From Nitrosopumilus sp. (GTDB lineage Archaea > Thermoproteota > Nitrososphaeria > Nitrososphaerales > Nitrosopumilaceae): a stretch of 64,000 bases of DNA. A program made the position numbers and the translations under genes. This document shows positions 14,274-26,400 of the stretch, in pieces (positions within the stretch are counted from its first letter, which is position 1; the number at the start of each line of letters is the position of its first letter). Location: positions 137,314 to 201,313 of the forward strand of contig JAOTWS010000004.1 in the NCBI GenBank assembly GCA_029862745.1, in the 5' to 3' direction. Below the pieces are notes generated by a model, which made no database searches, was not told the origin of the DNA, and saw nothing but the letters and a program-made list of their open reading frames with translations.

Positions 14274-14318
14274 TTGCAGCAAATGATTATATGCTAAAAC
14301 ATTTGGATTTTGTTTAGT

Positions 14319-14423
14319 AGCCCGATAGTCTAGCGGTCAAATAATATTTTAGATCAAGGATTCTGCCCTCTGGATCTCAAGAGTGGATAGGCGGAGACGG
14401 CAGTTCGAATCTGCCTCGGGCTA
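14319..14423 (+). tRNA. tRNA-Gln (CTG) with two probable short introns
   Basis: Acceptor AGCCCGA (14319-14325) pairs with TCGGGCT (14416-14422), discriminator A 14423. The D stem GTCT/GGAT, anticodon stem CTGCC/GGCGG and T arm GGCAG-TTCGAAT-CTGCC are all intact. The locus is 105 bases, 32 too long. Removing 17 bases from the D loop (14341-14357, movable by up to 4 because of flanking TCAA repeats) and 15 bases after position 37 (14374-14388, canonical 37/38 site) gives exactly 73 bases with loop CTCTGGA, anticodon CTG. A1-U72 fits Gln rather than Glu. No CCA is encoded. Confidence 0.88.
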
Positions 14424-23444: not shown

Positions 23445-26400
23445 TAAATTTTCTCCTTTATCAACAAACGTGGTGCAACATTAAGACTTTGCATTTCTTG
23501 TAATAATAATTTGAATGCATATGCTACAGATACAGATGAGACCTTAGCTTTATCTCCACATACTCTACAGACATATTTTCTTTGTTTAACATCATGATAG
23601 GCTACCAAACCACATCTTTCACATACAAAGATATCAGATTTATCAGACTCATCTAGTAATCTATCCTTTAAGATCATTGAAGCACCATAAGCAATCAAAC
23701 AGTCTCTTTCCATCTCACCAAATCTCAATCCACCACCTCTTGCTCTTCCTTCAGTTGGTTGTTTGGTTAACATCTGAACTTGTCCACGAGCTCTTGCATG
23801 GATTTTATCTGCAACCATATGATGAAGTTTTTGATAGTATACAACTCCAATAAAGACTTCAACTGGAAATGGTTTTCCAGTTCTTCCATCATACATTATT
23901 TCTTTACCAGAATATTTGAAGTTGTGTGCATCCATTACTTCTTTGACCTCATCCATTTTCTCTCCAACAAATGCAGAGCCATCAAATCGTTTACCACGAA
24001 ATGCCGCAGCTTTACCACAGATTGATTCCATCATCATTCCAACAGTCATTCTTGAAGGGAATGCATGTGGGTTAATCAAAACATCAGGTGATATTCCTTC
24101 TGCAGTGTATGGTAAGTCTTCAGCTTTTGCCAGAATTCCCAGTACACCTTTTTGTCCGTGTCTTGATGCAAACTTGTCACCAATCTCAGGAATTCTCATA
24201 TCTCTTGCTCTAATTTTATACATTTTTCCACCTTCATTAGATTGAGTCATAACTATAGTATCAATTACTCCAGCTTCAGATGGTCTTACACCAATAGAAG
24301 TATCTCGTCTATATGGACCAGATGATTCAAACTCCCTGTATTCTTCCATAAATCTAGGAGGGCTTGTTTTTCCAATCAAAATATCTCCTCCTTTAACTGG
24401 AGCTTCGGATGCAACTACTCCATCCTCTTCAAGTAATCTGTATGCACGTTCTCCTTTGTAGCCTCTAATGTTATCTTCAGCATTAGGAATTTCAAAGGCA
24501 TCACGCATTCCACCTGGATATTGTTTTGCCTCAGCATCATAGATTCTATAGAAGAAAGTTCTTCCTAATCCTCGATCAACTGATGCTTTACTCAATACAA
24601 TAGCATCTTCAATATTATAACCGTCAAATGGTAATACTGCAACAACACAGTTCTGTCCTGCTGGTCTGTCTTCTAGTCCTAAGAGTTTCATTGCTTTTGT
24701 ATTAACGATTGGGACTTGTGGATACAGCATAAAGTGTTGTCTAACGTAAGTACTTGTGTTCATCATAGGTGTAGAGAAACCTAAACTCTGTTTTGCCATT
24801 GCAGATTCGTAAGTATTTCTTGGAGATTGGTTATGTTCAGGATATGGAATGATAGAAGCTCCTGCACCAAGAATTGCTGGTGAAAATACCTCTAGGTGAG
24901 TGAATTTCTTTGTGTCTTTATCATCTAGTGTAACATAACAATTTTCTTCCTCATTTGCATCAATCATTTCTAGCACACCCATTCTCAAAAGATCAACCCA
25001 AGAAAGTAATTTTTTTGAAATTTTATCTAACAGTTCTGCTGTTAGTAGTGGCTTGTTATCTTTGATAATTATTAACGGTCTTAAAACTCGCCCTGCATTA
25101 CAATTTACATAAAGTCTTCTTGTGGATCCTTCAATATCGGATTTATGATACGAGATTCCAATGTGAGGATGAATCTTTGAGTTTCTTCTTAGGTCTCTAA
25201 GTGACTCAGCTAGTTCAGAGCCATCTTTGTAATATCCAATTAAACGTCCATCAACAAATACTCTAGTTCCATCTTTTTTGAGATCTTCTTTTGCATCAAA
25301 GAAATGAACTGTTCCAAGATCGTAGATTTTTTCTATGATCTCTTCAGAAGGTACATTAATTGATATAATTCCAGATAGTGCCAAATTTTTTACCAGACCA
25401 CAATTAGATCCTTCAGGAGTTTCACTTGGACAGATTCTTCCAAAGTGTGTTGCATGCAAATCTCTTGCCTCAAAGTTTGGTTGAGTTCTACTAAGAGGAG
25501 ATTGAATTCTTCTCAGATGGCTAATTGTTGAAAGATAATTAGTTCTATCAAGTAATTGAGTAACACCAACACGTCCACGTCCCCAGTTACCAGTTGCAAT
25601 AGCATTGTTTAGTTTATCAGTAATTATTCCAGGACGAATGGCTGCTGCAACTGCATTGATTCCACGTTTTTGACCAGATCTTTCTAATTGGTATTTCATA
25701 TCTCTAACTAAATTTCTAAACGCAGTTCTAAACAAATCTGCTAACATCTGTCCTGCAAATTTGATTACTTTATTTCCATAATGATCCTTATCATCAGGAG
25801 TAATCCAGCCAAGTTTTAATTCTAATAATTTACATGCTGCTTCACCTAAGAATTGTGCTTTCTCTTTTCTATTTTCAGGATGTTTTCCTAAATGTGGTAA
25901 TAATCCCCAATCAAGTAAAGTCTCAGCACGTTTAATTTGGAATTCTTCTAACATTCCAGGTGCAATTCTTTTACTGATGTAAACAATAGCATCTTTTGAT
26001 GTTGGAACATCTCCTGCTTTTTCAAATGAACCTTCCAATTCATCTTGAAGATCATCAACTAATGAAACGACAGAGGCAATTTCTCTATCAGACTCTAATC
26101 CAAGTGCTCTCATCAAGGTAACAACTGGAATGTCAACAGGTGATCCAGGAATTCTAGCAACAATCAAACCATCATTTTTCATTACAAGTTCTAATTTTGC
26201 ACGATAACCAACAATTGATGAATACACTTTAGCTTTGAAAACAATATTTCCACCAACAGTTTCTCTATCAACAATTATTTTGTTGTAAGAAAGATCTTCT
26301 AATCCAACAATAACTCTTTCAGAACCATTAATGATAAAGTAACCACCAGGATCATTTGGATCTTCACCGTGTTCAATTAATTTTTGAGTGGAGAAATTAT

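Follow-up and report, generated by a model that had tools for sequence, protein, structure and literature searches.

Does the stretch of Nitrosopumilus DNA at positions 14319-14423 of the window (the whole 64,000-nt stretch that was analysed) encode a functional tRNA-Gln(CTG) interrupted twice, once in the D loop and once in the anticodon loop, and, if so, where would the transcript be cut and how did the D-loop insert come to be present in some relatives and absent from others? We put a probability of about 95% on the reading that this is a functional, single-copy tRNA-Gln(CTG) gene on the plus strand with two protein-spliced archaeal introns.

The tRNA-Gln(CTG) gene and its two inserts

The gene is 105 nt long with both inserts and 73 nt long without them, and all of its parts lie on the plus strand. 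Exon 1 (tRNA positions 1-21; 14319-14340) carries G18, G19, U20 and C20a at 14335-14338, followed by A20b and A21, and is separated by a 17-nt insert at site 21/22 of the D loop (14341-14357) from exon 2 (positions 22-37; 14358-14373), which contains the anticodon CTG at 14370-14372. A 15-nt insert at the canonical anticodon-loop site 37/38 (14374-14388, or alternatively 14375-14389 with an identical product) precedes exon 3 (positions 38-73; 14389-14423). The acceptor stem is AGCCCGA/TCGGGCT with discriminator A, the D stem GTCT/GGAT includes two G-U pairs, the anticodon stem CTGCC/GGCGG includes one, and the T arm reads GGCAG-TTCGAAT-CTGCC. The initial annotation had stated that taking 17 nt out of the D loop and 15 nt out at 37/38 leaves a 73-base tRNA with all stems paired; ARAGORN indeed calls the 73-nt form tRNA-Gln(ctg), and the stems are paired as claimed, G-U pairs included. 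If only the 17 nt are removed, ARAGORN, with introns permitted, reports a tRNA-Gln(ctg) interrupted by an intron of 15 nt.

The locus with both inserts in place was missed by ARAGORN with bacterial settings in the window and by an Rfam cmscan across the 64-kb window. An Rfam tRNA search of the organism's own genome (1,811,954 bases) matched the whole gene at 38.7 bits (G000:C4:151632-151736). Other insert-bearing genes scored 38.5 and 41.4 bits, with L036 and L064 not found at the same threshold, and three naturally insert-free genes of 88 nt scored 45.5, 47.8 and 49.4 bits. A DNA search of the own genome at E 0.001 gave no second match to the gene. ARAGORN recognized 41 tRNAs among the remaining 43 of the 44 places found with Rfam, and the sole Gln among them is tRNA-Gln(TTG) (L014), which has the same D loop, AGCGGTCAA, with the insert absent. 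In the window the gene is convergent with a neighbour that we read as rps7; the names rps7, rps12 and nusA used here for the neighbouring genes are those we take them to bear. Orientation relative to the rps7-like neighbour varies, being convergent in the window (L034) and, in L037 and L038, such that the neighbour lies upstream in the same direction.

Removal of 15 nt at 37/38 leaves the loop CTCTGGA, with the join at the canonical position. By eye, the pairing CTCT (32-35) with GTGG in the window has one mismatch, C34-U, and GGGG stands at the corresponding place in several other families and in G020. A register one base on, TCTG:TGGA, is fully paired, yields the same mature loop and ranks fifth when the 105 nt are scanned for bulge-helix-bulge (BHB) motifs.

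Empty sites and the history of the D-loop intron

A DNA search of 61 genomes included 37 from the same genus, the window's own among them, and 34 of these 37 contain the gene (G005, G014 and G028 gave no match). In 26 of the 34 genes, otherwise near-identical, the D-loop insert is precisely absent: GTCTAGYGGTCAAGGAT. The remaining eight carry an insert, which is the identical 17 nt in G000, G015, G016 and G034, 20 nt in G021, 15 nt in G018, 14 nt in G029 and 21 nt in G020. Throughout the first four of these genomes the full 105 nt are identical and the flanks differ. In the BHB scan, which covered introns of 12-20 nt, the 17-nt D-loop excision ranks first. Given that 26 of the 34 same-genus genomes with the gene hold a near-identical version free of the 17 nt, and that the scan places exactly this excision at the top, we conclude that the D-loop insert is not a product of chance.

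Wider searches extended this picture. A pattern scan of our collection returned 102 records, 44 with a D-loop insert and 58 without. When 200 genomes of the family were searched with an exact pattern, 80 matched; the other 120, all from other genera, gave no match and are uninformative either way. By hand count, the own genus accounted for 45 matched genomes (7 with the insert, 38 without), and the insert was present in all 35 matched genomes of other genera, five genera in number. An insert at the same site was also found in genomes of five other families. The window's 17-nt insert recurs unchanged in L153, L163 and L183, which lie in a separate part of the tree described below, and in G116, a genome of another genus. 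As for the anticodon-loop insert, it is present in 34/34 same-genus genes, and in 101 of the 102 collection records it is 14-18 nt long (69 identical to the window's; L199 is cut off there), although the collection-scan pattern includes the first three bases of this intron and cannot speak on its absence. A search for a gene without the 37/38 intron, allowing up to 2 mismatches, found none in the 200 family genomes, a result that speaks mainly for the 80 that match the exact pattern.

Two observations stand apart from these counts. In L095 and L097, from two further families, tRNA-Gln(CTG) has by eye a D-arm insert elsewhere than at 21/22. Record L185, titled 'Candidatus Rhodobacter lobularis', contains this archaeal tRNA, falls among Nitrosopumilus in the tree and probably represents a mislabelled or contaminated assembly.

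Presence and absence were placed on an unrooted tree built by a quick method from the DNA of a single region (rps7, rps12 and nusA) for 91 of 103 records (L034 and the 102 of the scan), 12 with fewer than 500 bases having been left out. The tree includes 38 records with the insert and 53 without, and requires eight changes at the fewest, at least four of them forced by well-supported branches, against a mean of 29.3 when the states are shuffled. In it the window's genome clusters with two relatives that carry the insert, and the insert-free N. salaria is their sister (SH-aLRT 99). Since other genera and families carry the insert at this same site, loss is the simpler direction of change, and on the distribution of sequences the D-loop intron is probably ancestral and has been lost repeatedly.

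The same patchy pattern could have been produced by repeated gain, or by transfer of alleles between lineages, and we regard this as unlikely, though it is the alternative that deserves most weight. The tree counts changes and not their directions, is unrooted and draws on three neighbouring genes only, and the recurrence of the window's 17-nt insert in L153, L163, L183 and G116 would fit transfer, although old shared sequence explains it equally well. Repeated gain or transfer is harder to reconcile with the finding that every matched genome from the five other genera, 35 in all, has an insert and that five further families have one at the same place, and most of the other inserts follow clades (by eye, a 15-nt group, a 16-17-nt group with UGA and an A-rich group of 18-22 nt).

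That the insert is instead a fresh insertion of DNA, by a mobile element or a templated duplication, we judge to be very improbable. Such an event might be read from the sequence TCAA, which stands once on each side of a 13-nt core in the window and would be a target-site duplication, and from the empty site in 26 of 34 same-genus genomes; the presence of the insert at the same site in all 35 matched other-genus genomes and in five other families argues against it. A mobile-element target-site duplication was rejected, as the flanking repeat in homologous introns is 4, 3, 2 or 0 bases long and tracks the sequence of the central helix.

Bulge-helix-bulge pairing, predicted cut sites and proposed splicing

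The pairing of the D-loop intron was analysed in 31 distinct insert-bearing D-loop segments, taken from the collection-scan records, the same-genus-search loci and ten further loci (one from the own genus, nine from five other families); tRNA-Gln(TTG) genes, insert-free genes and the tRNA-Gln(CTG) genes in which the D-arm insert is, by eye, at another place (L095, L097) were left out of the set. With the cuts placed after the second base of each bulge, a 4-bp central helix in which the intron pairs with exon GGYC (18-20a) is complete in 30 of the 31 segments, and it is complete in none of the 31 at any of seven shifted registers (-4 to -1 and +1 to +3). The exception, L079, a degenerate-looking second copy in G056, forms three of the four pairs. 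In the window the central helix is 14335-14338/14352-14355 and the inner stem 14342-14344/14349-14351. The combinations observed are GGTC:GATC (13 segments), GGTC:GGCC (5), GGCC:GGCT (5), GGTC:GGCT (3), GGTC:GACT (2) and, once each, GGTC:GATT, GGCC:GGTT and TGCC:GGCT, the last in L079. Changes on both sides of a pair are seen at the third central pair, where U-A (GGUC:GAUC) is replaced by C-G (GGCC:GGUU), and at the inner pair, where A-U is replaced by G-C (UAA/UUA to UGA/UCA). Across the six families represented the introns measure 13-22 nt, varying in their middle and length with constant ends, and have inner stems of 1-5 bp; the outer D stem is set off by a 3/2 internal loop. Because this internal loop intervenes between the motif and the outer helix, the motif reads as a relaxed BHB and not as a strict one.

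Both inserts behave as BHB introns, as the claim of two introns had supposed, and the D-loop site, at 21/22, is non-canonical, again as proposed. The covariation by itself is modest evidence: when the 3' strands were shuffled among the 31 segments, a mean of 26.9 remained fully paired and 30 was reached in 32 of 5000 shuffles. Its weakness comes from GGUC and GGCC pairing with most intron strands, and the shuffle takes no account of the segments being related by descent. The BHB folding that the initial annotation had suggested as a check gave a divided answer, in that the minimum-energy fold of the window retains GGUC:GAUC but is not a BHB, pairing AAA with UUU in place of a 3-nt bulge. For the GC-rich relative L064 the minimum-energy fold is a BHB, and for L117 a BHB-like form comes second by 0.1 kcal/mol.

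The TCAA repeats had been thought to leave the cut sites open by up to four bases. The flanking repeats are indeed present, but the ambiguity is resolved by the geometry of the motif and by relatives with a shorter repeat or none: in L065, L067, L080 and L070 there is no repeat, and the cut that gives the insert-free D loop is unambiguous, at 21/22. Cuts at AA^A and AA^G yield exactly the GGTCAA|GGAT of insert-free relatives. If the window shares its relatives' motif, its transcript would be cut after A14340 and after A14357, at site 21/22. As the pairing is drawn here, the TCAA repeats arise as a side effect of the motif, in which the central-helix strands and the AA bulges that follow them overlap in sequence (GGUC-AA and GAUC-AA).

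We attach very little probability, less still than to a fresh insertion, to a mature tRNA that keeps the insert as an enlarged D loop. The full gene does score above the Rfam gathering threshold (38.7 versus 29 bits). A retained insert, however, would sequester G18-G19; moreover, the ends of the insert show BHB pairing in 30 of 31 segments while its length floats between 13 and 22 nt, and the organism's own tRNA-Gln(TTG) has the same D loop with no insert. Least credible of all is a pseudogene or an assembly error, for although the gene escapes both ARAGORN and the window-wide cmscan, its 105 nt are identical in four genomes with differing flanks, its stems are all paired, no other match exists in the genome and a promoter-like element is conserved upstream.

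That element is the TATA-box-like TTATAT at 14287-14292 (plus strand; -32 to -27), which is identical to the column consensus of 102 upstream stretches, where each base exceeds 70%. A separate hexamer count, with a stricter pattern to which TTATATG of the window itself does not conform, placed the start at -31 in 51/102 and at -32 in 26/102. The conservation of this consensus and its presence in the window support transcription of the gene from a putative promoter of its own. A run of four Ts within 25 bases downstream is found in only 34 of 101 records.

The own genome contains two genes matching PF01974, the splicing endonuclease family. For the 178-aa product the best matches are chains 2cv8, 3p1z, 3ajv and 2zyz; its Tyr, His and Lys, presumably the catalytic residues, lie in FAVYEK, IDHAPF and TVRKQF, and a Lys of its GMPKPK (residues 32-37) aligns to residue 44 of 3p1z, which we take to be the key residue of the specificity loop. 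The best match of the 206-aa product is 1a79, and it has Gly where 1a79 has His. From the sequences, one gene of catalytic type and one without the catalytic His, the pair would fit an (alpha-beta)2 endonuclease. As described in PMC6379350, 3p1z, 3ajv and 2zyz come from Aeropyrum and Pyrobaculum and are broad-specificity enzymes of the (alpha-beta)2 type; that account ties efficient removal of relaxed-BHB introns, the D loop included, to (alpha-beta)2 enzymes, and links broad specificity to 'the conserved Lys residue' of the loop, which it leaves unnumbered. Thaumarchaeota are assigned alpha2beta2-type endonucleases in PMC4090602.

We can envisage the maturation of the tRNA as follows. In the precursor, G18-G19-U20-C20a of the exon would pair with GAUC of the intron to form a 4-bp central helix, with the 5' bulge A-A^A and the 3' bulge A-A^G next to it. 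UAA/UUA would close the motif towards the intron and the D stem, set off by a small internal loop, would close it towards the exon, giving a relaxed BHB. An endonuclease of two kinds of subunit would cut after the second base of each bulge and release 17 nt; the relaxed motif at 37/38 would also be cut, releasing 15 nt, and a ligase would join the three exons. G18-G19 later dock into the T loop. While present, the D-loop intron would tie up these two residues, and since it holds them, the final L fold probably depends on its excision.

Apparent inserts were also seen in other tRNA genes. L092 (G000:C12, about 25100-25190, minus strand) is a CAT tRNA resembling initiator tRNA-Met that seems to have a 15-nt D-loop intron with the central helix AGCC:GGCT; ARAGORN misses it, the Rfam match is partial, and an equal-scoring reading of the scan would remove part of the D arm. 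In L084 (G000:C9:2-96, minus strand), a tRNA-Val(CAC), 20 nt are inserted close to the variable loop and make a full BHB (TGCG:CGCA, 5-bp inner stem) that tops its scan. In another family, the tRNA-Gln(CTG) genes L098 and L070 apparently have three inserts, near 7/8, in the D loop and at 37/38 (the first and last by eye), and in other families the tRNA-Gln(TTG) genes L074-L077 have apparent inserts in the acceptor region and D arm (by eye).

Known archaeal introns and a possible route of intron loss

Introns of this class are already known, those described here are of ordinary size, and tRNA-Gln(CTG) adds a member. Section 4 of PMC4090602 gives 11-129 nt for archaeal tRNA introns, with isodecoder medians mostly of 12-25 nt, and against that range 15 and 17 nt are ordinary, contrary to the suggestion of the initial annotation that both introns lie near the lower size limit. 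The non-canonical BHB introns treated there resemble the present one in exon-intron pairing, 4-bp helix, two 3-nt bulges and size, in D-loop location (20/21 and 22/23 are given) and in coexistence with a 37/38 intron; they differ in that site 21/22 is absent from the list of sites printed there, which is open-ended ('etc.'), and in that the outer helix here is relaxed. Non-canonical introns across archaeal phyla, Thaumarchaeota included, are recorded in PMC3218864, and PMC8450103 describes multiple non-canonical introns in Thaumarchaeota tRNAs, 107 in all, and a dedicated BHB model in tRNAscan-SE 2.0; phylum and motif are shared with ours. A term search of PMC3293823 found no Thaumarchaeota passage. 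Among the matches listed in the openly licensed literature there was no paper on this tRNA-Gln D-loop intron, which may be among the 107 of PMC8450103. Thermoproteales (Sugahara 2008 and Fujishima 2010, as cited in PMC4090602 and PMC4033280) likewise have several introns per tRNA with lineage-specific presence and absence, but the emphasis in those accounts is on gain and transposition, whereas the pattern here suggests that one old intron was lost precisely and more than once.

How could such loss be so precise? One idea, which we offer tentatively and hold to be doubtful, is that the splice motif itself makes the D-loop intron easily lost, by slippage between the TCAA repeats. Both bulges begin with AA and the central-helix strands share UC, which would give rise to the TCAA direct repeats, and their collapse by slippage would delete exactly the intron and leave a perfect tRNA. 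Were the TGGAT repeats that flank the 37/38 intron to collapse, the anticodon loop would be left two bases too long. Against this, 25 of the 35 matched other-genus genomes share the 4-base repeat and none has lost the intron (hand count), so that the repeat is insufficient on its own. If the idea is correct, slippage would explain why the D-loop intron has been lost recurrently and precisely in one genus with the 37/38 intron kept, and replication slippage, not reverse transcription of spliced tRNA, would be a route of archaeal tRNA intron loss.

The locus is an example of a tRNA gene overlooked both by ARAGORN with bacterial settings and by a window-wide Rfam scan, and the clean comparison of genes with and without the insert allows the likely cut sites to be read from DNA alone. 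One intron has probably been lost precisely again and again while the other stays, and this series of genes with and without the intron, at one locus in one genus, would provide an unusually clean set for studying the loss of archaeal tRNA introns.
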